From contig JADCBP010000005.1 in the NCBI GenBank assembly GCA_020253445.1, positions 744,001 through 808,000 of the forward strand: a DNA stretch of 64,000 nucleotides. The letters are read 5' to 3'. This DNA is from Methylobacterium sp. Its GTDB lineage: Bacteria > Pseudomonadota > Alphaproteobacteria > Rhizobiales > Beijerinckiaceae. The notes under the pieces were generated by a model that worked only from the letters and a program-made list of their open reading frames with translations, was not told the origin of the DNA and ran no database searches. A program made the position numbers and the translations under genes. This document shows positions 35,236 to 61,105 of the stretch, in pieces; position 1 is the first letter of the stretch, and each line of letters begins with the position of its first letter.

Positions 35236-35721
35236 ATGCGTTGCCCCTTCTGTGGTTCCTTCGACACGCAGGTGAAGGATTCGCGCCCCGCCGATGATGG
35301 CGGCGCGATCCGTCGCCGGCGCGTCTGCACCGATTGCGGCGGGCGCTTCACGACCTTCGAGCGGGTGCAGCTGAAGGAACTGATGGTGGTCAAGCGCTCG
35401 GGCCGGCGCGTGCCGTTTGATCGCGACAAGCTCGCGCGCTCCATCGAGATCGCACTGAGGAAGCGCCCCATCGACCGCGACCGCGTGGAAAGGCTGATCA
35501 ACGGCATCGTGCGCGAACTCGAGAGCCAGTCCGAGGGCGAGGTGACCAGCGAGGGCATCGGCGCGCTGGTGATGGAACGCCTGCGGCGGCTCGATCAGGT
35601 CGCCTATGTGCGCTTCGCCTCGGTCTACAAGAACTTCAACGCCGCCGAGGAATTCGGCGACATCCTCCGCGAACTCGGGCACGAGGAAGTCTCGGGCGAG
35701 ACCGCCGAGGATGGCGGATGA
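35236..35721 (+). CDS. nrdR: Transcriptional repressor NrdR
   Basis: Zinc-ribbon and ATP-cone repressor of ribonucleotide reductase genes. The 161-residue protein starts [18 protein letters not shown], continues with [15 protein letters not shown] to complete four zinc cysteines, and carries the ATP-cone (about 49-139) with [17 protein letters not shown] and [11 protein letters not shown]. It overlaps ribD by 4 bases (ATGA). Confidence 0.96.
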
Positions 35722-36872
35722 TGTTCGCCCCGCGGGACGAAGCCTTCATGCGTGCGGCGATCGCGCTCGCGCGGCGCGGGCTCGGCCGCACCTGGCCGAA
35801 CCCTTCCGTCGCGGCCCTCGTGGTCAACGAGAGCGTCGATCCGCCGGTGATGCTGGGCCGGGGCCGCACATCGCCCGGCGGCCGGCCGCATGCGGAAGCG
35901 AATGCCGTGGCGGAAGCCGGAGAAGCGGCGCGCGGTGCCACGATGTATGTCACGCTGGAACCCTGCGCGCGGCGCTCGCAGCGGGTCTTCGGGCCGTCCT
36001 GCACGGAAATCATTCTCGCGAGCGGCATAGCCCGCGTGGTGATCGGTGCTGCCGATCCCTCGCCTTTCGCGAGCGGGGAGGGGACGGAGGCCCTGCGCAA
36101 GGCAGGCATCGCGGTGGTGACGGGCCTTTGCGAGCCGGAGGCGCGCGCGGTGACGCGCGGCCATTGCCTGCGCGTTTCCAGCCATCGGCCCTTCGTGACC
36201 CTCAAGCTCGCGCAGACAAAGGACGGATTCGCCGGAACCGCAGATCGCAAGCCGATCGCGATCACCGGCGAGGAGGCACGTGCTTACGTGCAACGCCTCC
36301 GCTCGATCCATGATGCCTTGATCACCGGCATCGGCACGGTGCTGGCCGATGATCCCCGGCTCGATGTGCGCCTGCCGGGCATGGCCGGCATGAGCCCGAT
36401 GCGCGTGGTGCTCGATACCGAAGGCCGCCTGCCCGCCCATGCGCGGATCATCACGGAAGCGGCCAAGGCACCCGTGCTGATTCTCTCTGCCAAGGCGCGC
36501 AATCCGTTCCTTGGCGTCTCGAATCGGACTGCGAGCCAAGCGGGCCCATCGGGCGGGGAGGGCGAACAGGCTGCTGAAATCCTTGGTATTCCCAAGGCCG
36601 AGGATGGCCATCTCGATCTCGCGGCCGCCCTTGGTGCGCTCGCCGCGCAGGGCATCACACGCGTGATGGTCGAGGCCGGGCCGACGCTTTCCAACGCCTT
36701 CGCGAAAGCCGGTTTCATCGACCGCCTCGAACTCCTGACCGGCGCGAATGCCATCGGCCAGGGCCTGCCCGCCATCGGGCGGGACCTTGCCGGATGGATC
36801 GCGAAGGCCCACCTCGTGGGCGCGCGCATGCTCGGGCCGGACCGGCTCGAAATTCACGAGGGGAAGGGCTGA
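35718..36872 (+). CDS. ribD: Bifunctional riboflavin biosynthesis deaminase/reductase RibD
   Basis: Deaminates and then reduces the pyrimidine intermediate of riboflavin synthesis. In the 384-residue protein, the N-terminal deaminase (1-145) has the zinc His and Glu in [13 protein letters not shown] and cysteines 83 and 95. The reductase (about 155-380) has [28 protein letters not shown] and VMVEAGPTL. The spacing between the two zinc cysteines is 11 residues instead of 8 and the usual HHG after the first cysteine is replaced by ARRSQR, so the deaminase zinc loop is atypical. It overlaps nrdR and ribE. Confidence 0.9.
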
Positions 36873-51327: not shown

Positions 51328-52449
51328 TCAGTCCGTCAGCGGGGCATGGGCAACCATCGCATCGAAATCGATGAAATGGCCGGCGCGGTCACGCTTGGAG
51401 GCGAGATAGCGCACGTTCTCGGCCGTCGGGCGGCCATAGGCGCGGTTATCGGCCACGACCTCGAGACCCGACGCCTTCAGCGCGCCGATCTTCTCGGGGT
51501 TGTTGGTCATCACGCGGACGCTCGTCACGCCGAGCCTGCGCAGCATCTCGGCCGCGAAATCGAAGCGACGCTGGTCGAGGCCGAAGCCCAGAACCTCGTC
51601 GGCGTCATAGGTGTCCCAGCCCTGCGACTGGAGCTTGTAGGCGCGCATCTTGTTGGCGATGCCGTTCCCGCGTCCCTCCTGATCGAGGTAGAGCAGGATG
51701 CCGCCATCGGCCTGCGCCATCTTCTGCACGGTGCCGCGCAGCTGGTCGCCGCAATCGCACTTCAGTGAGCCGAACAGATCGCCCGTCAGGCAGGCGGAAT
51801 GCATGCGGATGGCCACGGGCTTCGCAAAATCCGGCTTGCCGACGATGATTGCTACCTGGTCGCGCAGGCCTTCGCCGCCGCGGAATACCACGAATTCAGT
51901 CTCGGCCGCGAATTCCAGCGGAACGGGCGCGCGACCGACGATCTGGATGGCATTCACCTGTGCCGCACGATAAGCGCGGATGTCCTTCAGCGAGACGCGC
52001 ACAAGATCGTCCGTCAGCGCCGAAGCCGGCAGCGGAACGGCATAGACGGCCGGGGTGAGCAGCGCGAGGCGCGCCAGCTCGATCGCGCCTTCATCCAGCG
52101 TGCCGGCCGGCGAAACCGGAGCGTCAATGCGCGCGTCGATCTTCAGGGCGAGAGTTTCCACACGCGCCGCATCCGGCACGGGAAAGGCCACGATACCGGG
52201 CTGCTGACGATCCAGACCCAGACGACGCAGGCGCGCCGCAGGGATGATGAGCCGGGCGCGGCCCGGAGCGAGTGTGTCGAGGCCTTCCGCGATCCGCTGG
52301 GTCAGAGCGTCCACCAGAAGCACGACGAGGGCTTCCCCTCCTTCCAGAACCGCCACGGGGCGGCCGGCGCGGAATTCGGCGATGGCGCGATCTACCGCGC
52401 GTTCATCCGCTGTATCGAAAAGCCCAAGAACTTCGGCAACTTTGCTCAT
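51328..52449 (-). CDS. GTP cyclohydrolase II with degenerate RibB-like N-terminal domain
   Basis: 373-residue two-domain protein. The C-terminal part (about 175-365) is GTP cyclohydrolase II: zinc cysteines 220, 231 and 233 (HSACLTGD and SLKCDCG), YLDQEGRGNGI with Arg260, and MTNNPEKIGAL. The N-terminal part (about 15-165) aligns in layout with dihydroxybutanone-phosphate synthase (FRAGRPVAVL, RLRRLGL), but the catalytic DDEDRENEGD block is replaced by EGGEALVVLLVD. It opens the formamide ring of GTP to a diaminopyrimidine; the N-domain is predicted inactive. It may feed the adjacent gene set rather than riboflavin. Confidence 0.87.
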   Translation of the reverse strand: MSKVAEVLGLFDTADERAVDRAIAEFRAGRPVAVLEGGEALVVLLVDALTQRIAEGLDTLAPGRARLIIPAARLRRLGLDRQQPGIVAFPVPDAARVETLALKIDARIDAPVSPAGTLDEGAIELARLALLTPAVYAVPLPASALTDDLVRVSLKDIRAYRAAQVNAIQIVGRAPVPLEFAAETEFVVFRGGEGLRDQVAIIVGKPDFAKPVAIRMHSACLTGDLFGSLKCDCGDQLRGTVQKMAQADGGILLYLDQEGRGNGIANKMRAYKLQSQGWDTYDADEVLGFGLDQRRFDFAAEMLRRLGVTSVRVMTNNPEKIGALKASGLEVVADNRAYGRPTAENVRYLASKRDRAGHFIDFDAMVAHAPLTD

Positions 52450-52669
52450 TTCACTTCCAATCAGTCCATGTTTGCGGTCTTTTCGACGGAGGAATTCCAT
52501 CGGATGGACACCGTGTTCACACTCGGTGGCGGCACTTATCACCAGGGAAGATGAACGCAGGCTGTCTGAGCGTTCACCCTGTTTAAAATTCCTTGCCTTT
52601 GGCAGCCGGGTCCCCTCAGAACGAAAAGCACTGTCCATCCGTGGGCCGCTTCCGGGCGGTGAAAGCAGC
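52450..52669. other. Divergent promoter region between the GTP cyclohydrolase and RibD_C genes
   Basis: 220 bases without a supported gene. It must hold promoters for both directions. I looked for the FMN riboswitch core on both strands and did not find it. Confidence 0.5.
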
Positions 52670-53371
52670 ATGATTCCTCCTACGTGCCAGAACGCCGATC
52701 CGTTCCGTTTTTTTCGTGCGAAACTTCCGGATCGCCCGTTCATCGTGGCGCAGCTCGGCCAATCGCTCGACGGGCGCATCGCAACCCTCACGGGCGACAG
52801 CAAGTATATCGGCAGCCGCCCCTCGCTTGCCCATCTCCATGCCATCCGCGCCCATGTGGATGCGGTTGTGGTGGGCATCGGCACGGTTCTGGCCGATGAT
52901 CCGAAACTCAATGTGCGGCTCTGCGAAGGTCCGAATCCCGCGCGCGTCGTCATTGATGCGAAGGGCCGTCTTCCGGCCGCCGCGCAATGCCTCGATGGTT
53001 CCGATGGTGCGCGGCGCATCGTGCTGCGCGGCCCGGATGCGAGAGGCGAGGCCCTGCCGGCGGGCGTGGAGGTTCATCGCCTGCCCATAAGCGCTGCGGG
53101 GCGGTTCGATCTCGTGGAACTCGCGCGGGCGTTGCGGCATCTCGGTTTTGCGCGCGTGTTGCTGGAAGGCGGTGCGGCGATGATCTCGCAGGCGATCGAT
53201 GCCGGCATCGTCGATCGGCTGCACCTCATGGTCTCGCCCGTGCTGATCGGTTCCGGCCAGCCGGGTCTCGAGCTCGAACCGGTGCGGCGACTGGCCGATG
53301 CCCGGCGGCCCGCCGTGGAGGTGACTTTGCTTGGCGAGGGCGAGGTGTTATTCGATTGCGACTTAAGTTGA
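52670..53371 (+). CDS. Stand-alone RibD C-terminal (pyrimidine reductase) domain protein
   Basis: 233-residue protein with only the NADPH-dependent reductase half of RibD, a dihydrofolate-reductase-like fold. It has AQLGQSLDGRIATLTGDSKYIG, split, then [20 protein letters not shown] and VLLEGGAAMISQ. No deaminase domain. A full ribD is present at 35718, so this copy is likely to act on another or earlier pyrimidine, perhaps the product of the divergent GTP cyclohydrolase gene. ATG at 52670. Confidence 0.85.
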   Translation: MIPPTCQNADPFRFFRAKLPDRPFIVAQLGQSLDGRIATLTGDSKYIGSRPSLAHLHAIRAHVDAVVVGIGTVLADDPKLNVRLCEGPNPARVVIDAKGRLPAAAQCLDGSDGARRIVLRGPDARGEALPAGVEVHRLPISAAGRFDLVELARALRHLGFARVLLEGGAAMISQAIDAGIVDRLHLMVSPVLIGSGQPGLELEPVRRLADARRPAVEVTLLGEGEVLFDCDLS

Positions 53372-53388
53372 ATGGAAGGGGATCGATC

Positions 53389-53943
53389 ATGGCAACAGGA
53401 ACCGAACCGCAATCCTATTCCGGCCCGCAGAAGCTCCTGCACTGGCTTATCACATTGATGGTGATGATGTTGGCTCCCATCGGTTTCTACATGGTCGAGC
53501 GCGGGGAGAAGACCAACTTCGACGCCCTCACCAACACGCTCTACACCAACCACAAGACCTTCGGCTTCCTCTTCCTGATGCTCGTGGCCTTGCGCATCGT
53601 CATCCGCTCCCGGCGGGGGGTTCCGGCACCGGTCCCCACCCTCACGCGCTTCGAGCGCCTTGCCTCCGAGGCGGTGCACAAGGGCTTGTATGCGTTGATG
53701 GTTCTCGTGCCGCTGCTCGGCTGGGCCGGTGTATCGGCCTTTCCGGCGCGCGGCATCCTCTTCGGGCTTTCGCTGCCGCCGATCATGCCGGTGAATGCGG
53801 ATCTCGCGAAGGTCATCCTGGAGCTTCACGGCTATGCGGCCGTGGCCATGCTGGTGCTGATCGCGGCGCATTTCGCCGGTGCCATGATGCATCGCTTCGT
53901 CAGGAAGGATGGTGTGATGCGCCGGATGATGCCCGGCACGTGA
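53389..53943 (+). CDS. Cytochrome b561-type diheme membrane protein
   Basis: 184-residue inner-membrane protein with four helices. Histidines for two b hemes lie in QKLLHWLITLM, YTNHKTFGFLF, EAVHKGLYALM and LIAAHFAGAMMHRFV. Such proteins pass electrons between quinol and periplasmic or soluble partners. AAGGGG precedes the ATG. It follows the RibD_C gene by 17 bases and is probably co-transcribed. Confidence 0.88.
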   Translation: MATGTEPQSYSGPQKLLHWLITLMVMMLAPIGFYMVERGEKTNFDALTNTLYTNHKTFGFLFLMLVALRIVIRSRRGVPAPVPTLTRFERLASEAVHKGLYALMVLVPLLGWAGVSAFPARGILFGLSLPPIMPVNADLAKVILELHGYAAVAMLVLIAAHFAGAMMHRFVRKDGVMRRMMPGT

Positions 53944-53976
53944 CGCCAGTGCGGCCGGCCTTGCCGCAAGCGCCGA

Positions 53977-54828
53977 TCATGCCTTTGCGGCGAGGATATC
54001 CGTGTGACCGGTCTTCATGCGCGAGCCCTTCTGGTCGCCCATAGAGGTGCGCCAGAACAGCCAGTCATCCGCGCCATTGTCGGCGATGAGCCCGGTTTCC
54101 ATCACCGCGCGATGCAGGCCCTTCAGAAGCTCGGTCTTGAGCGCAATGTCCGAGGGCTTCAGCACCCAGGGCGTATCCGCCGTTTCCACGCCGTAGCCCG
54201 CTTCTTTCAGCAGGCGAGCGAGCGTGGCCGCTGCCATAGGGCCTTCCGCCGGGCCAAACCCCTTGTCGCGCTTCTGGTGGATCTTGAAGGCGTTGATCAT
54301 GCCCCAATCGAAGGGATGGGCGGGGATGAACTCATCCTCGCCGTTATAGGTCAGCACCGTATAGAAGATCGCGGGCGTGGACCTCAGCGCCTGCACGAAG
54401 CGGCGCATCCACGGCTCGGAGATGAGATCGAACAAGGCCGAGGCCGTGACGATGTCGATCTCGCCCGAGATCACCTTCTCGAGTTCCACATTGAGATCGG
54501 AGATGCGGAAGGTGACGCCGATATTCTTTCCATCCTTCACCAGCACGAGTTTGTCACCGATCGTCCTGGCCTCGTCCGCCCATTCGGTCAGAATCTTCGT
54601 GGCGCGCTCCAGCAGGGCCGGATCGTAATCCACGAGCGTCCATTCCTGGTTCGCCCCAAGGGCCGGCGCAGTGGCGCGGAGGTTGGAGCCCGTGCCGCAG
54701 CCGAGATCGGTGATGCGGAGGGTGTCGTGTCCCTCGACGCGCTTCGCAAGATTGGCGAGCAGCCCGGCGGAACGGGAGCGATGGTCGGCCGGCTCGCGCA
54801 GAGCCAGCCAATCGGCGGAGAAACCCAT
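53977..54828 (-). CDS. Class I SAM-dependent methyltransferase
   Basis: 283-residue methyltransferase. Motif I is ITDLGCGTGSNLRATAPAL near residue 40, with WTLVDYDPALLERA as the acidic second motif. Begins MGFSADWLALREPADHRSRS. It is the last gene of a minus-strand run, 2 bases after the glycosyltransferase gene. The acceptor is unknown; context suggests a pterin or pyrimidine glycoside. Confidence 0.85.
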   Translation of the reverse strand: MGFSADWLALREPADHRSRSAGLLANLAKRVEGHDTLRITDLGCGTGSNLRATAPALGANQEWTLVDYDPALLERATKILTEWADEARTIGDKLVLVKDGKNIGVTFRISDLNVELEKVISGEIDIVTASALFDLISEPWMRRFVQALRSTPAIFYTVLTYNGEDEFIPAHPFDWGMINAFKIHQKRDKGFGPAEGPMAAATLARLLKEAGYGVETADTPWVLKPSDIALKTELLKGLHRAVMETGLIADNGADDWLFWRTSMGDQKGSRMKTGHTDILAAKA

Positions 54829-54830
54829 GG

Positions 54831-55916
54831 TCAGGGGCCTTTCGAGGCAGGGGGAACGAGGTTCGGGCCATTGCCGGAAAGGCCTTGCAGCGCGCCGGCG
54901 ATGATGCGGGCCGTATCCTCCCAGGTCGGGAGGTTCTGGCCCGCGCGATGGGCGGCCTCGGCGAGGCGCGCGCGCAGGCCGGGATCGGCGAGGGCGTCAT
55001 CCAGCGCCTTGCGGAGCGCCGGAACGTCGCCCGGAGGCACTTTCAGCCCCGCGCCATCCGGCACGGTCTCGGAGGCCGCGCCGCCCGTGGTGGTGACGAT
55101 GGGAAGCCCGCGCTGCAAGGCTTCGCCCAGCACCATGCCATAACCCTCAAAGAGTGAGGACATCACGAAGAGGTCAGCTGTCTCAAAGAGATGGTCGAGA
55201 TCTCGATCCGGCACCGCGCCCAGGAGCCGGATGTGCCCGTCGAGGCCCGAGAGGCGGATCTGGTCACGCAGGGCGTTCACGGTTTCGAGGCTGCGGGCCG
55301 TACCGGCGATGCGCAGTTTCCAGTTCCGGCGCTTCAGGCCATGCAGCGCCTCGACCAGCACGCCATAGCCCTTGCGTGGCACGATGGAACCGACCGCCAG
55401 CATGTTCACGACATCGGATTTCGAACCCATCGCGCGCGATTTCCGCGCCGTGCCGGGCTCTGCGACCGTGATCTTGTCGCGCGCCACGCCAAAATCGCCG
55501 GCCAGGATCTTCGCGGTGAGCGGCGAGGTGACGATCACGTGCTCGGCGAGCGCCAGCGCTTTCGTCTCGGAATCATGCAAAGCCACGGTGCGCTCCGGCG
55601 AGATGCCGTTCTCCAAGGCGAGCGGATGGTGGCAGAGCGCCACGATCCGGCGGTTGAAGCGACGGATCAGTTCTTCCGGCATCGCGCCATAGGCAAGCCC
55701 ATCGATCAGCAGGATGCAATCGGCGGGCAGGCTCGCGATGATCGCAGCGGTATCCTCGAGATCCGCCGCGCTTGGGTTGGGGTAGCTGCCGGGCAGGGCG
55801 ACGTGCAGAGCCTCCACCCCGGCCTGCGGCAGAAGGCGGATCACCGCGCGATCATAGGCATAGCCGCCCGTGGGCAGCGAGAGATCGCCGGGAATGACAA
55901 AGGCGATCCTGATCAT
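54831..55916 (-). CDS. Family 4 glycosyltransferase
   Basis: 361-residue GT-B glycosyltransferase. The C-terminal GT4 half has NMLAVGSIVPRKGYGVLVEAL, RIAGTA, and FVMSSLFEGYGMVLGEALQRGLPIV, containing the EX7E-type motif. The N-terminal half is MIRIAFVIPGDLSLPTGGYAYDR. No membrane segment. It starts 4 bases after the PTPS-like gene and ends 2 bases before the methyltransferase. Confidence 0.9.
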   Translation of the reverse strand: MIRIAFVIPGDLSLPTGGYAYDRAVIRLLPQAGVEALHVALPGSYPNPSAADLEDTAAIIASLPADCILLIDGLAYGAMPEELIRRFNRRIVALCHHPLALENGISPERTVALHDSETKALALAEHVIVTSPLTAKILAGDFGVARDKITVAEPGTARKSRAMGSKSDVVNMLAVGSIVPRKGYGVLVEALHGLKRRNWKLRIAGTARSLETVNALRDQIRLSGLDGHIRLLGAVPDRDLDHLFETADLFVMSSLFEGYGMVLGEALQRGLPIVTTTGGAASETVPDGAGLKVPPGDVPALRKALDDALADPGLRARLAEAAHRAGQNLPTWEDTARIIAGALQGLSGNGPNLVPPASKGP

Positions 55917-55920
55917 GGAA

Positions 55921-56322
55921 TTACGCAACCGCACCCTCGAACCAGGCGCGGGCGAGGTCCGTCTCGTGCAGGGTCACGCGGATCTTCGAGAGGCCCTTGC
56001 CATCTTCACCCAGCGCGCCGGATTTCGCCGCCTTCACCATGCCCTCGAAGATGTGACGGGCAAGGAATTCCGTGGTGGTGAGAATGCCCCTGAACTCAGG
56101 CAGCTCGTCGAGGTTCTGGTATTTCAGCGGCTTCAGCACAGCCGCGAGCGTATCGAGTGCTGCGCCGATATCGACCACCACGTTCTGCTTCGTCATCGTC
56201 TCGCGGAAGAAGGCGACATCCACCACGAAGGTCGCGCCGTGCATGTTCTGCGCCGGGCCAAAGAACGGATCGGGCAGCGAATGGCCGATCATGATGCGAT
56301 CACGGACTTCAACGGCGAACAT
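55921..56322 (-). CDS. Divergent 6-pyruvoyl-tetrahydropterin synthase-like protein
   Basis: 133-residue T-fold protein resembling QueD/PTPS. His14 (GHSLP) and His28 (NMHGATF) align with two zinc histidines, and Glu120 (LHETDLARAW) with the substrate-binding glutamate. The catalytic cysteine ahead of HGH is replaced (FGPAQNMHG), the third histidine is Ala30, and the DHxxLN catalytic motif is KYQNLDE. I infer altered or lost canonical chemistry. It follows the dehydrogenase gene by 102 bases and precedes the glycosyltransferase by 4. Confidence 0.78.
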   Translation of the reverse strand: MFAVEVRDRIMIGHSLPDPFFGPAQNMHGATFVVDVAFFRETMTKQNVVVDIGAALDTLAAVLKPLKYQNLDELPEFRGILTTTEFLARHIFEGMVKAAKSGALGEDGKGLSKIRVTLHETDLARAWFEGAVA

Positions 56323-56424
56323 GGGGCGGTTCCTTCTTGACGTAGCCCGACGGGCGACAGATCCCGACTGGCTTTTGCGAGAAGCCTCGCGCCGCATGGC
56401 GCGAAACGAAAACAACAAGCTGGT

Positions 56425-57405
56425 TCAATACTGAACCAGGGTCACGAGACCTTGCGCATCCCTTGCGAGCAACCGCGGGATGGCGTCGGGCAAAGCGGGA
56501 AAGGGAAGCGTTTCGGTGAGAAGCGCGTCGAGCCTTTCGTCGCGCAATAGGCGCAAGGCTGCCTGAAGGCGCGATGAATAAGACCAGCCGCGCGATGCAT
56601 GCCCCGGCGAAACCGTGCCGACCTGCGAGGAGACGAGCTTCACCCGGCCCGCATGGAAATGTCCGCCAAGCGGCACCATCAGCGGCTTTTCGCCATACCA
56701 GGAAAGTTCGATCACCGTGCCGTTGGGGGCGGTCGAGGCAATGGCGGTCGCGAGGCCCGGCTGGCTCGCGGAGGCGTGGAAGACGACATCCTGATGCCTC
56801 GGCGCTTCCGCCGGCAGGGCGAATCGCGCACCGAAGGCTTCGGCCATCGCGGCGCGAGCGGGGTTCACGTCCACCAAGGTCACCTCGGCGCCGGGAAAGC
56901 GCGCGGCGAGACAGGTCACGAGCACGCCCACAAGGCCACCGCCCACCACGGTCACACGGTCCGCGGCACTCATGCCGGAATCCCAGATCGCGTTGAGCGC
57001 GGTTTCCATATTGGCGGCGAGCGTCGCGCGCGGAGTGGGGATATCATCGGGAATGAGCTGGAGCATCGCGGTTTTCGCGTTGAACACTTCCTGATGCGGG
57101 TGGAGCACGAAGACCCGCTTGCCAACGAGTTCCTCCGGCCCTTCCTCCACCCGCGCCACGGCGCAATAGCCGTATTTCACGGGGAACGGGAAATCTCCCG
57201 CCTGATGCGGGCAGCGCATCCGCTCGCGCTCGCCTTCCGGCACGAGGCCCGAAGCGATGAGCCGCTCCGTTCCGCGCGAGAGCGCCGAAGCGAGCATCAC
57301 GAGCCGCGATTCATCCGCCAATGGCGGTTCTACGCGCTCCTCGCGCAGTTCGGCCTGCAGGGGCGCAACATACCAGAGCGCGCGGGCGGTGGTGGACGTG
57401 AACAT
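56425..57405 (-). CDS. Medium-chain dehydrogenase/reductase
   Basis: 326-residue zinc-type alcohol-dehydrogenase superfamily protein. The NAD(P)-binding Rossmann motif is VTVVGGGLVGVLVTCLAARF, and LVDVNPARAAMAEAFGA gives the acidic end of the second strand. The catalytic and structural zinc motifs (GHE and the four-cysteine lobe) are missing. It resembles the BchC-like branch. It leads a minus-strand run with the PTPS-like, glycosyltransferase and methyltransferase genes and diverges from the opgH-like gene. Confidence 0.82.
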   Translation of the reverse strand: MFTSTTARALWYVAPLQAELREERVEPPLADESRLVMLASALSRGTERLIASGLVPEGERERMRCPHQAGDFPFPVKYGYCAVARVEEGPEELVGKRVFVLHPHQEVFNAKTAMLQLIPDDIPTPRATLAANMETALNAIWDSGMSAADRVTVVGGGLVGVLVTCLAARFPGAEVTLVDVNPARAAMAEAFGARFALPAEAPRHQDVVFHASASQPGLATAIASTAPNGTVIELSWYGEKPLMVPLGGHFHAGRVKLVSSQVGTVSPGHASRGWSYSSRLQAALRLLRDERLDALLTETLPFPALPDAIPRLLARDAQGLVTLVQY

Positions 57406-57587
57406 GGCTCGACCGTTCCAGTTTGCTTCTGTTCAGATTGCGCGTGGCAGGTAGCGCCCGCAAAAGCGAGGAAACCCGTTTCGCGCCGGTTTCGCAACGA
57501 ACCCTTTTCATGCCAGAGAGGGACAAGCAAGGCGGGACTTTTCCGGCACTCGCCCCATTTGACTTTCGCCCGAAAGGCCGACCCGAC

Positions 57588-59384
57588 ATGACGACCTCCA
57601 CCGAGCCCGCCGCCCCCCGCGCCGAGCTTTCGCTGACACCCACCGGCACCCAAAGCTCGGAAGTGCTGATGCTGCGCCGCCTCATCGTGGCGGGCCTCAA
57701 CATTTTCCTCTATCTCGCGCTGGCCGCATGGGGATGGTCCATTCTCGCGGTCGAGGGCTGGTCGATCGTCGATATCCTGCTGTTCATCTGCTTCCTTTTC
57801 GGCACGCCCTGGGCGGTTCTGGGCTTCTGGAACGCCGTCATCGGCCTCATCCTGCTGCATGGTCCGCGCAACGCCATGCAGGATGTCGCGCCCTTCGCCT
57901 CGATTGCCGATCCCGCCATGCCGGTGACGCTGAAGACCGCGATCTTCATGACGCTCCGCAACGAGGACCCCTCGCGCGCCTTCCGCCGCCTGCGGCTGGT
58001 GAAGGAAAAGGTGGATGCCACGGGCCATGGCGACAAATTCGCCTATTTCCTGCTCTCCGACACCAACAAGGATGATGTCGCGGCGCAGGAGGAAGAGCTT
58101 TTCGCCACCTGGAAGGCAGAGGCTGGCGCGACCGCGCCGCTCTTCTATCGTCGGCGCACGGAGAATACCGGCTTCAAGGCCGGCAATGTGAAGGATTTCC
58201 TGAACCGCTGGGGCTCGGATTACGACCTCATGCTGCCGCTCGATGCGGACAGCCTGATGGATGGCGAGACAATCCTCCGCCATGTCCGCATCATGGAGGC
58301 GAACCCGAAGCTCGGCATCCTGCAGAGCCTCGTGGTCGGCATGCCCTCGCAGAGCCTCTTCGCGCGTATCTTTCAGTTCGGGATGCGGCAGGGCATGCGC
58401 TCCTACACGATGGGTCAGGCCTGGTGGGTGGGCGATTGCGGCCCGTTCTGGGGGCACAACGCGCTCGCGCGCATCGCGCCGTTCCGCGACCATTGCGAAT
58501 TGCCGGTGCTGCCGGGCCCGCCGCCCTTTGGCGGGCATATCCTCAGCCATGATCAGGTGGAAGCCACCTTCATGCGTCGCGCGGGCTATGAAGTGCGCGT
58601 GATGCCGGAGGAAGGCGGTTCCTGGGAGGAAAACCCGCCGACCATCCTCGAATTCATGAAGCGCAATACCCGCTGGTGCCAGGGCAACCTGCAATATTTC
58701 AAGCTGCTCGACACCAAGGGCCTCTACCCGGTCAGCCGCTTCCAGCTGATCTGGGCGATCCTGATGTTCCTCGGCATCCCCGCCTGGACACTGATGTTGC
58801 CGCTGGCGGCGCTGAAGCCTTTCGATGGCGAGAGCCTCGCGGCCTTCCCCGTGGGCTCGGCGCTGGCGCTCTACATCTTCTTCACCATCATGAACCTCAT
58901 GCCGAAGATCGCGGGTTTGCTGGATATTCTCCTCACCCCCGGTGGCACGAAGCGCTATGGCGGCACGGGCAAGTTCCTGTTCGCGGGTCTGAGCGAGATC
59001 GTTTTCGCCTGGATCCTCGGCGCGTCCGATACGTTCCGCACCACGGTCTTCATCGTCGGTCTCATCTTCGGAAAGTCGGTGGTCTGGGGCGGGCAGGCGC
59101 GTGACGCCCATGGCGTGCCATGGGATGTCGCGACCTCGAATCTCTGGCCGCAGACGCTGTTCGGTTTCGTCGTCGTGGGCCTGATGGCCGCGACCTCCAT
59201 CCAGTTCGCGCTCTGGTCGCTGCCGCTCACGCTCGGCTTCCTCGTTGCCATCCCCTTCGCGGTGTGGAGCGCCGAACCCGCGCTCGGCGCCGCGAGCGTG
59301 CGGAGCGGGCTTTACGCGATCCCCGAGGAAATCGACACCCCGGCGATTGTCGCGAAGCTCCGCGCTCAGGAAGCGGGGCACTGA
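57588..59384 (+). CDS. opgH: Glucans biosynthesis glucosyltransferase (MdoH/OpgH type)
   Basis: Inner-membrane family 2 glycosyltransferase polymerising glucose for osmoregulated periplasmic glucans. The 598-residue protein has two N-terminal helices, FMTLRNEDPSRAF, NTGFKAGNVKDFL, LPLDADSLMDGETIL, GHILSHDQVEATF and FMKRNTRWCQGNLQ (the Q/RxxRW-type motif), then about five C-terminal helices. It is shorter than enteric OpgH. No opgG/opgD lies nearby. ATG at 57588 is used; 57510 is an in-frame alternative. Confidence 0.9.
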   Translation: MTTSTEPAAPRAELSLTPTGTQSSEVLMLRRLIVAGLNIFLYLALAAWGWSILAVEGWSIVDILLFICFLFGTPWAVLGFWNAVIGLILLHGPRNAMQDVAPFASIADPAMPVTLKTAIFMTLRNEDPSRAFRRLRLVKEKVDATGHGDKFAYFLLSDTNKDDVAAQEEELFATWKAEAGATAPLFYRRRTENTGFKAGNVKDFLNRWGSDYDLMLPLDADSLMDGETILRHVRIMEANPKLGILQSLVVGMPSQSLFARIFQFGMRQGMRSYTMGQAWWVGDCGPFWGHNALARIAPFRDHCELPVLPGPPPFGGHILSHDQVEATFMRRAGYEVRVMPEEGGSWEENPPTILEFMKRNTRWCQGNLQYFKLLDTKGLYPVSRFQLIWAILMFLGIPAWTLMLPLAALKPFDGESLAAFPVGSALALYIFFTIMNLMPKIAGLLDILLTPGGTKRYGGTGKFLFAGLSEIVFAWILGASDTFRTTVFIVGLIFGKSVVWGGQARDAHGVPWDVATSNLWPQTLFGFVVVGLMAATSIQFALWSLPLTLGFLVAIPFAVWSAEPALGAASVRSGLYAIPEEIDTPAIVAKLRAQEAGH

Positions 59385-59385
59385 C

Positions 59386-60156
59386 ATGGCGCTCTCGACC
59401 CTGGAAATCTCGGCGCTCACGAAGAAATGGCCGCATCTCAAGCGCTCCTTCGAGGTCTATCACGGTGACCAGTCCCGCGATGACGCGATGGATGCGCTCT
59501 ATGCGCGCTTTCTTTCCGCGGGCGCGCTGGCTTTCGACGTGGGCAGCCATGTCGGCGACCGGATCGGCTCCTTCCGCCGCTGCGGCGCGCGCGTGGTGGC
59601 GCTGGAACCCCAGCCGGATTGCGCAAGCGCGATCCGGCTGATCTTCGCGGGTGATGCGGGCGTGACTTTGCTCGAAAGCGCCTGCGGGCCGAAGCCCGGC
59701 GAAATCACGCTGCACGTGAACTCGGCGAACCCCACCGTCTCCACCGCCTCGGCGGATTTCCTGAAGGCGGCGGATGGCGCGGCGGGCTGGGAGGGCCAAT
59801 TCTGGGATCGCGAGATCCCTGTCCCGGTCACCACGCTTGATGCGTTGATCGCGCGATATGGCATGCCCGATTTCGTGAAGATCGATGTCGAGGGTTTCGA
59901 GGCCGATGTGATCGCAGGGCTTTCCCGCGCGATCCCCGCGCTTTCCTTCGAGTTCACGACCATCCAGCGTGACGTTGCCTATCGGTGCCTCGCGCTGATC
60001 GCGAAGCGCGGCGCCTATCGCTTCAACATCGCGCTCGGCGAAAGCCAGAAGATGGATTTCGCGGAGGGCATTTCCGCCGGGGCGATGGAAGCGCATATCC
60101 GCGCCCTGCCGCATGAAGCGAATTCGGGAGACGTCTATGCGGTTCTCGATCGCTAG
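59386..60156 (+). CDS. FkbM-family methyltransferase
   Basis: 256-residue SAM methyltransferase of the FkbM family. ALAFDVGSHVGDRIGSFRRCG is motif I, VVALEPQPDCA the second motif, and DFVKIDVEGFEADVIAGL the FkbM hallmark. It starts one base after the opgH stop codon and overlaps the next gene by 20 bases, so the three genes form an operon. It may methylate the glucan or a linked sugar; that is inference. Confidence 0.9.
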   Translation: MALSTLEISALTKKWPHLKRSFEVYHGDQSRDDAMDALYARFLSAGALAFDVGSHVGDRIGSFRRCGARVVALEPQPDCASAIRLIFAGDAGVTLLESACGPKPGEITLHVNSANPTVSTASADFLKAADGAAGWEGQFWDREIPVPVTTLDALIARYGMPDFVKIDVEGFEADVIAGLSRAIPALSFEFTTIQRDVAYRCLALIAKRGAYRFNIALGESQKMDFAEGISAGAMEAHIRALPHEANSGDVYAVLDR

Positions 60157-61105
60157 CCTCGCCGCCGTTCTCGCGGCTGTCGCGCCCGTTTTCGCCCAGA
60201 ACCCTCCCGGAGGCCCCGTGCTCGCTCCCCCGAAAGACGAAATGACCGTCAAGGTCCAGAACCTCTCCGAACCCGAGGTCTGCGCCGAGAAGGACAATAT
60301 CGACATCCGCTTCTCGAACCCGGATGTGCGGCGCTTCAAGATCCAGGCGATCCAGCCGAGTTATATCGGCATGCTGCGCGAGGATCGCTACCTGCCGGAC
60401 TGGACCGCCTGCGACATGACCGGCGACCCGGCCTATGTCTCGGGCAAGCCGAGGCAGGTGACCTTGTGGGAAACGCCCTCGATGTGGGTGGTGGGACATG
60501 TCTTCCCGGCCTTCTGGCGGCCGGCCACCGTGCCGGTGAAGATCGGCGACCGGGTGGAGCACGGCCTGCATCTCATCCAGCTCTGGATGCGCGTGAACGA
60601 GCGCTCCGAGGAGATGCTCGTGGTCTATCCGCCCGATGGCTACTGGCGCATGCGGCCCCTGCCGCCGAAGCATCTGGGCTGGACCGCCTATGGCTCGAGC
60701 TTCATGGTTGGCCCGGTGACGATGGAAGGGCGCCCGGTGGTGGCGCTGAAGGAGATCGCCTTCGATCCGGAGGAGAAGAAATTCACCTTCACCTTCCGCG
60801 ATGGTGGCGAGGGCGCCTTGCGCATCGTGCATCTGGATGCCGATCGCTTCGTGATCGAGGCGACGCTTGCGGGGGATTTGCCGAGGGACAAGCCCTTCGC
60901 CGCCCTCCGTTCGATGTACATTACCGAGACGAACAATGATGCGGCCCGCGTCGCCTGGCGCGAGGCGAAGAACCCGCGCTGGGGGGAGGAGCACATCCTC
61001 GATTACAAGGGCGGAGAGGCGACCGAGTTCTGGGCGGGTCGCCATGTGGCCTCGCGCCACAACACCTCGGCGCCCGACATGGTGTTCTCCCGCTTCGAGA
61101 AGTAG
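60137..61105 (+). CDS. Secreted protein of unknown function
   Basis: 322-residue protein with a signal peptide (MRFSIASLAAVLAAVAPVFA before QNPP). The mature part has many short strands and Trp/Pro-rich turns (YWRMRPLPPKHLGWTAYGSS, EFWAGRHVASRHN) and two cysteines (EVCAEKD and TACDMTG). I recognise no family. A GGGAG precedes the ATG at 60137, which lies inside the end of the FkbM gene. Co-occurrence with opgH suggests a periplasmic role in glucan modification or sensing. Confidence 0.7.
   Translation: MRFSIASLAAVLAAVAPVFAQNPPGGPVLAPPKDEMTVKVQNLSEPEVCAEKDNIDIRFSNPDVRRFKIQAIQPSYIGMLREDRYLPDWTACDMTGDPAYVSGKPRQVTLWETPSMWVVGHVFPAFWRPATVPVKIGDRVEHGLHLIQLWMRVNERSEEMLVVYPPDGYWRMRPLPPKHLGWTAYGSSFMVGPVTMEGRPVVALKEIAFDPEEKKFTFTFRDGGEGALRIVHLDADRFVIEATLAGDLPRDKPFAALRSMYITETNNDAARVAWREAKNPRWGEEHILDYKGGEATEFWAGRHVASRHNTSAPDMVFSRFEK

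Follow-up and report, generated by a model that had tools for sequence, protein, structure and literature searches.

A conserved gene block in Methylobacterium and other microbes that may convert GTP into a glycosylated, methylated pterin-like or pyrimidine product

What might be made by seven neighbouring genes that encode a GTP (guanosine triphosphate) cyclohydrolase II (GCH2), a lone RibD reductase domain (RibD_C), a cytochrome b561, a class I S-adenosylmethionine (SAM) methyltransferase, a GT4 glycosyltransferase, a protein of the PTPS family and a medium-chain dehydrogenase (MDR)? The genes lie at 51.3–57.4 kb of a 64,000-nucleotide stretch of the Methylobacterium sp. contig JADCBP010000005.1 (hereafter the window), from a genome of 18 contigs and 3.3 Mb. 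An original prediction, made from the letters alone, had placed the seven families within 6 kb and proposed that they form an undescribed pathway; with refined open reading frame (ORF) coordinates all seven are present at those places. The analyses below establish the seven genes as a widely conserved unit and lead us to favour, on balance, a dedicated biosynthetic pathway from GTP to a glycosylated, methylated pterin-like or pyrimidine product. The enzyme families and their conserved co-location are read from the sequences themselves; the chemical steps we infer.

Conservation of the neighbours had been set beforehand as a test of the prediction, and it was upheld. MDR matches at E ≤ 1e-8 are present in 41 genomes of a class sample of 289 alphaproteobacterial genomes; 36 of the 41, one of them the genome of the window, reach E ≤ 7.4e-44. 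Neighbours, here and throughout, are genes at most 9 kb from the anchor gene. MDR and PTPS occur together at 35 of the 36 strong loci and four core genes (MDR, PTPS, GT4 and methyltransferase) at 31; the core plus RibD is found at 25, and intact GCH2 at 12. One locus (L045) holds the MDR alone, another (L040) MDR and PTPS without GT4 or methyltransferase. A scan of genome contigs gave at least 589 encoded PTPS relatives; the best 80 were kept as named loci, with MDR and PTPS at 70, the four core genes at 60 and intact GCH2 at 32. Because these are the best 80 of at least 589 and were chosen through PTPS, they lean towards close relatives. Among 72,556 plasmids, 28 records match MDR and 20 match PTPS at the limits used; 16 of the 28 enter the counts, giving 132 loci in all (36 class, 80 named, 16 plasmid), whereas three Streptomyces plasmids (L200, L201 and L202) and three further haloarchaeal regions, all later reads, are excluded. 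Several loci are truncated by contig ends, and some of the loci counted also went into the hidden Markov models for MdoH, cytochrome b, FkbM, RibD, GCH2 and CDP-alcohol phosphatidyltransferase. Bosea, Ancylobacter, Hyphomicrobium, Paracoccus and Rhodobacter are among the named examples; beyond these, the block is present in Actinomycetota (Streptomyces, Microbacterium) and in a gammaproteobacterium, and a variant is found in haloarchaea (Haloarcula). With at least 589 PTPS relatives encoded in genome contigs, the metabolite made by the block would be a common one.

Four of the genes form a run on the minus strand of the window: MDR (56425–57405), PTPS (55921–56322), GT4 (54831–55916; PF00534, E 9.7e-31) and methyltransferase (53977–54828; Methyltransf_25, E 1.4e-7; family alignment of 25 sequences), with intergenic gaps of 102, 4 and 2 bases. 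GCH2 (51328–52449) is also on the minus strand; RibD_C (52670–53371, start codon checked) and cytochrome b561 (53389–53943; PF01292, E 6.8e-28) are on the plus strand. Cytochrome b561 family genes are neighbours at 55 of the 132 loci. Among the NCBIfam matches listed (for GT4 the best 25 of 40) none for PTPS, MDR, GT4 or methyltransferase exceeds its cut-off, and profiles from the PDB give the methyltransferase weak general matches only, from which no role was read. An Rfam scan of 48–62 kb returned no riboswitch match; scans for promoters and terminators gave 0 and 7 sites against shuffled means of 1.3 and 7.5.

The PTPS protein is the genome's sole PF01242 protein. The prediction had described it as altered in its catalytic residues, and the CxxxHGH motif is indeed missing. 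The protein carries FGPAQ, followed further on by HGAT; FGPAQ is the published signature of the PTPS-IV subfamily (PMC5445326). Its best solved relative, SCO6650 of Streptomyces coelicolor (3d7j, E 3.1e-37), belongs to that subfamily, and its best named relative among the matches listed, from which the records closest to the window's genome may be excluded, is a 92% identical protein of Rhabdaerophilum calidifontis. FGPA is conserved in 124 of 130 PTPS ORFs, and five of the six exceptions are haloarchaeal. Most of the annotated records read name the protein as the queuosine enzyme 6-carboxytetrahydropterin synthase. The motif test speaks against this: HGH, expected of QueD (PTPS-I), is present in 0 of 130 proteins, the QueD model scores 30.8 bits against a cut-off of 89.25, and the motifs of PTPS-II (CxxxxxHGH) and PTPS-III (ExxHGH) likewise occur in 0 of 130. 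PTPS-IV does keep an invariant Glu, which we take to be the pterin anchor. PTPS-IV is a named but orphan subfamily.

RibD_C (PF01872, E 1.7e-37) is a reductase domain alone: no deaminase domain was found in a Pfam scan, as predicted, and, also as predicted, a full RibD with its deaminase part is encoded elsewhere in the window (ORF 35421–36869). It is closest to reductases that act before deamination, its nearest solved relatives being 6p8c, deposited as a 2,5-diamino reductase, and the archaeal reductase 2azn. Against seven cluster RibD proteins of other lineages it scores 124–193 bits, against the RibD of its own genome 84.7 bits. The score to TIGR01508 (2,5-diamino-pyrimidinone phosphate reductase) is 104.7 bits, below the cut-off of 186.45, and RibD_C is therefore classed as works-like only; it probably acts on a 2,5-diamino compound. 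As no deaminase is encoded in the block, the 2-amino-4-oxo ring should remain intact, in keeping with a PTPS pocket.

The dehydrogenase (PF00107, E 8.6e-8) is of the BchC/polyol-dehydrogenase type, although its score to the BchC model (38.2 bits) is under the cut-off. Its profile lies nearest, in the PDB, to RspB, alcohol dehydrogenase, butanediol dehydrogenase, L-iditol 2-dehydrogenase and galactitol-1-phosphate 5-dehydrogenase. Invariant Ser43 and Tyr80 occupy what we assume to be the places of the family's catalytic zinc Cys and His; the enzyme, which the prediction called zinc-free, is probably so.

Which GTP cyclohydrolase feeds the block? The cluster GCH2 (PF00925, E 2.3e-50; PRK08815, 501.6 bits, cut-off 464; 2bz0, E 2.4e-40) keeps the zinc Cys residues and the conserved Tyr of the catalytic domain in alignment. 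No Pfam family matches its N-terminal half, where the acidic RibB stretch is missing in the alignment, so the protein is not a bifunctional RibBA; the dead RibB half had been recognised at the outset. Intact GCH2 near MDR is also found, for example, on an Agrobacterium plasmid. In haloarchaea an unrelated family takes this position: GCH IIa/III is present on 5 of the 72,556 plasmids (PF05165, E 6.6e-81 for one of the five) and in all 5 it lies directly upstream of MDR. A third line of evidence comes from the order of genome G259, where PTPS-IV is encoded in 64 of 100 genomes, and FolE and FolE2 in 0 of 100 each; only 20 of the 100 reach 90% completeness with contamination of 5% or less, and 10 of these 20 have PTPS-IV. 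Two loci mapped in this order (L055 and L056) hold GCH2, RibD, methyltransferase, GT4, PTPS, MDR and a creatininase. These genomes argue against a FolE-dependent pterin pathway as a requirement of the block. Because GCH2 is nearby, GCH IIa/III lies beside MDR and FolE is found in none of 100 genomes of one order, the pathway probably starts from a riboflavin-type diaminopyrimidine. GCH2 by itself is too unspecific to mark the block: the cluster GCH2 finds a match at 1e-45 in 105 of the 289 class genomes, but only 36 have a strong MDR match. The folate enzyme HPPK is encoded in 77 of the 100 genomes of this order despite the lack of FolE and FolE2. A folate bypass through the block was considered and rejected; HPPK is found in genomes without PTPS-IV as well (G289, G291, G295 and G305), and its presence can therefore not be put down to the block.

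From these families a route can be proposed. With good confidence we suggest that GCH2 (GCH IIa/III in haloarchaea) would open GTP to 2,5-diamino-6-ribosylamino-4(3H)-pyrimidinone 5'-phosphate, accompanied at some loci by a creatininase-family gene (9 of 132). The lone RibD_C would then, quite likely, reduce the ribose part to ribityl prior to any deamination, and the 2-amino-4-oxo face would therefore be kept. The third step is the least secure, and we put it forward only tentatively, as our own reading: the polyol-type MDR may oxidise one of the secondary alcohols in the ribityl chain; PTPS-IV may bind the ring and promote condensation between the new ketone and the 5-amino group, which would yield a reduced pterin with no need of GTP cyclohydrolase I. 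In the FolE route a C2' ketone closes to the dihydropterin, and oxidation of ribityl C2' would give that ketone. Next, GT4 would probably add a sugar and the methyltransferase a methyl group. Finally, the product could possibly be tied to the membrane or envelope, through a CDP-alcohol phosphatidyltransferase in some lineages or, in others and here, together with an MdoH-type glycosyltransferase. Taken as one scheme – a route to a reduced pterin that is free of GTP cyclohydrolase I, oxidises the side chain with a zinc-free polyol dehydrogenase, closes the ring with a re-purposed PTPS, decorates it, and anchors it in the membrane through a phosphodiester made by the CDP-alcohol phosphatidyltransferase or couples it to an MdoH-type glycan, possibly as a redox carrier next to cytochrome b561 – the proposal is bolder and rather unlikely to hold in every part. 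If true, it would be a possible second way to make pterins.

The last of these steps draws on recurring membrane-linked partners that the prediction, correct in its seven genes, had left out. Divergent from MDR, the window carries on the plus strand a recurrent group (57423–61105) made up of an MdoH-type membrane glycosyltransferase (about 57588–59384, with a start codon of our choosing), an FkbM-type methyltransferase (59386–60156; PF05050, E 9.5e-17) and a protein that looks secreted and matches no Pfam or NCBIfam family (60113–61105), the latter two being possible partners. The MdoH-type protein scores 879.4 bits to PRK05454.2-6 (cut-off 884) and exceeds the cut-offs of two sister models. 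Such glycosyltransferases recur at 63 of 132 loci, FkbM-type methyltransferases at 42 of 132 and the secreted-looking protein at 27 of 115. A CDP-alcohol phosphatidyltransferase is a neighbour at 33 of the 132 (class 12/36, named 13/80, plasmid 8/16), with the full catalytic motif in 32 of the 33, and it shares a locus with MdoH only once, at L110 (1 of 132; Fisher p 2e-10, phylogeny ignored). In the class sample alone the phosphatidyltransferase is present at 0 of 9 loci with MdoH and 12 of 27 without (p 0.014, again ignoring phylogeny). A test of 20 genomes found the phosphatidyltransferase subtype (≥84.9 bits) in 9 and in 0 of the 7 with an MdoH locus (G000, G189, G216, G262, G164, G218 and G182); in G175 and G271 its neighbour is a GCH2 located away from MDR. 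Flippase-like genes occur at 13 of 132 loci, and 12 of these 13 also have the phosphatidyltransferase. On this gene content, it is a reasonable guess that the product is linked to a lipid or a glycan. Three Haloarcula plasmids (L137, L203 and L205) carry a Gfo/Idh/MocA oxidoreductase gene that overlaps or directly adjoins the gene for the CDP-alcohol phosphatidyltransferase, and the pair lies upstream of GCH IIa and MDR.

Several observations weigh against the proposed route. Intact GCH2, by a strict motif, is a neighbour at only 47 of 132 loci; GCH2-family matches at L046, L071, L073, L116 and L140 fail that motif and are not counted as intact, the one at L140 being a strong PF00925 match. 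The block-bearing genome G096 has a single PF00925 copy, which is degenerate, and in G095, G231 and G128, which carry the core, the better PF00925 copy is degenerate and weak second copies are unread. FolE is encoded in 27 of 29 genomes tested and in 25 of the 27 that bear the block, the window's genome included, and in G231 an extra FolE copy lies beside MDR (G231:C121:19535-20065, in L162). In the window's own genome the cluster GCH2 is the sole ordinary intact GCH2 found: the GCH2 domain of the other RibBA (C14:79 kb; L157, G000:C14:78000-81000) lacks the zinc cysteines, and the third PF00925 protein (L158, G000:C14:344500-347000) is of the PRK07198 type (744.8 bits). The prediction listed the genes correctly but overlooked this; the placement of the cluster GCH2 could therefore reflect a need for riboflavin, which the enzyme may serve as well. 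As for PTPS, the haloarchaeal proteins lack FGPAQ and keep H-x-H, so the archaeal block is a relative and not the same; two Natrarchaeobaculum plasmids have no annotated PTPS beside MDR; and on the Streptomyces plasmids L200, L201 and L202 PTPS-IV is found without MDR, GT4 and methyltransferase as core neighbours. (Cupin, MBL-fold and BTAD-regulator genes lie close to it on these three plasmids.) In S. meliloti, a member of the creatininase family has been proven to act as a formamidase on the product of GCH III (PMC9478397); the three creatininases scanned here score best to MftE, under every cut-off, so a formamidase role for them is putative. The window's genome lacks the phosphatidyltransferase subtype (best match 30 bits), and the exclusion between MdoH and the phosphatidyltransferase is to be read with its neglect of phylogeny in mind.

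What of the prediction's own route, in which GTP is opened to a diaminopyrimidine that is then reduced, rearranged, glycosylated and methylated? It is supported in part. Conservation across phyla and the archaeal cyclohydrolases beside MDR speak for a dedicated GTP/diaminopyrimidine pathway in which a sugar and a methyl group are transferred; its step order, the part played by PTPS and the choice between pyrimidine and pterin are proposals. This choice defines the alternative that survives best. The product could be a monocyclic diaminopyrimidine glycoside, with MDR and PTPS-IV remodelling the side chain or sugar. All PTPS catalytic motifs are lost, which makes ring closure by PTPS conjectural, and the MDR is similar to dehydrogenases of polyols and sugar acids. 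The fold of PTPS and the invariant Glu, in the role assumed above, suggest on the other hand a pterin-like ligand, and free diaminopyrimidines are unstable; we consider a pyrimidine end product unlikely.

A decorated pterin might also be derived from dihydroneopterin triphosphate made by FolE, with GCH2 and RibD_C as riboflavin genes that are nearby by chance. The frequency of FolE in block-bearing genomes and its copy adjoining MDR in G231 are what such an origin would predict, as is the lack of an intact ordinary GCH2 among the copies read in G096, G095, G231 and G128 (intactness was judged on fetched copies only; those unread are the second of G175 and the weak second of G095, G128 and G231). 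The order with PTPS-IV and neither FolE nor FolE2 argues in the opposite direction, as do GCH IIa directly upstream of MDR on 5 of 5 plasmids and the lack of HGH in all 130 PTPS proteins; a FolE origin is accordingly less probable still than a pyrimidine product.

A flavin branch, in which GCH2 and RibD_C supply riboflavin or a flavin glycoside for secretion and the remaining genes decorate the flavin, would suit the finding of no other ordinary intact GCH2 in the genome. It is nonetheless improbable: RibD_C has no deaminase domain, although the genome also encodes a full RibD, and is more similar to reductases that act before deamination; a second strong copy of GCH2 is present in five genomes (G216, G015, G028 and G161, where both were read, and G175, where one of two was); and we know of no place for the PTPS fold in flavin synthesis. 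A role in F420 synthesis, stated for PTPS-IV on unpublished evidence in a review (PMC5041015) and favoured by an F420-dependent-type oxidoreductase annotated near one Streptomyces locus, is very improbable, the block having no deaminase and the plasmid loci read no annotated FO synthase. The precursor of FO is a deaminated compound.

We return to the dedicated pathway from a diaminopyrimidine. How much of it was known? The prediction's remark that it knew of no named pathway with this gene set agrees with our literature searches but needs qualification. No description of the whole block as a pathway was found in the open-licence literature, where absence is weak evidence. PTPS-IV had been named, however, and the 2017 AGeNNT paper records PF00925 and PF01872 in its neighbourhood; the available part of that paper does not give the context of MDR, GT4, methyltransferase, creatininase and CDP-alcohol phosphatidyltransferase seen in the block (PMC5445326). 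Already known are therefore the subfamily and its link to GCH2 and RibD_C; in kind the block belongs with pathways to GTP-derived pterin or pyrimidine glycosides. Its opening would use the same kinds of enzyme, and by inference the same intermediates, as riboflavin synthesis in the archaeal and fungal order (GCH II or III, the formamidase ArfB/BrbF and a diamino reductase), but it has no deaminase, and PTPS, MDR, GT4 and methyltransferase replace the lumazine and riboflavin synthases. A version of the block is also encoded by Haloarcula marismortui, from which sulfohalopterin, a decorated pterin, is reported; a literature search on this compound listed other papers only, and no link of genes to compound was found. 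A glycosylated pterin would likewise recall cyanopterin, the cyanobacterial pterin glycoside; the routes given for such compounds in passages of a review start with FolE (PMC13259868), whereas genomes that bear the block can lack it.

The degenerate RibBA of the window's genome has counterparts. In the family members G070 (L159) and G283 (L190) the GCH2 domain of RibBA also lacks the zinc cysteines, and neither genome has another PF00925 match. This situation brings to mind the GTP cyclohydrolase that is discussed as missing in S. meliloti (PMC9478397).

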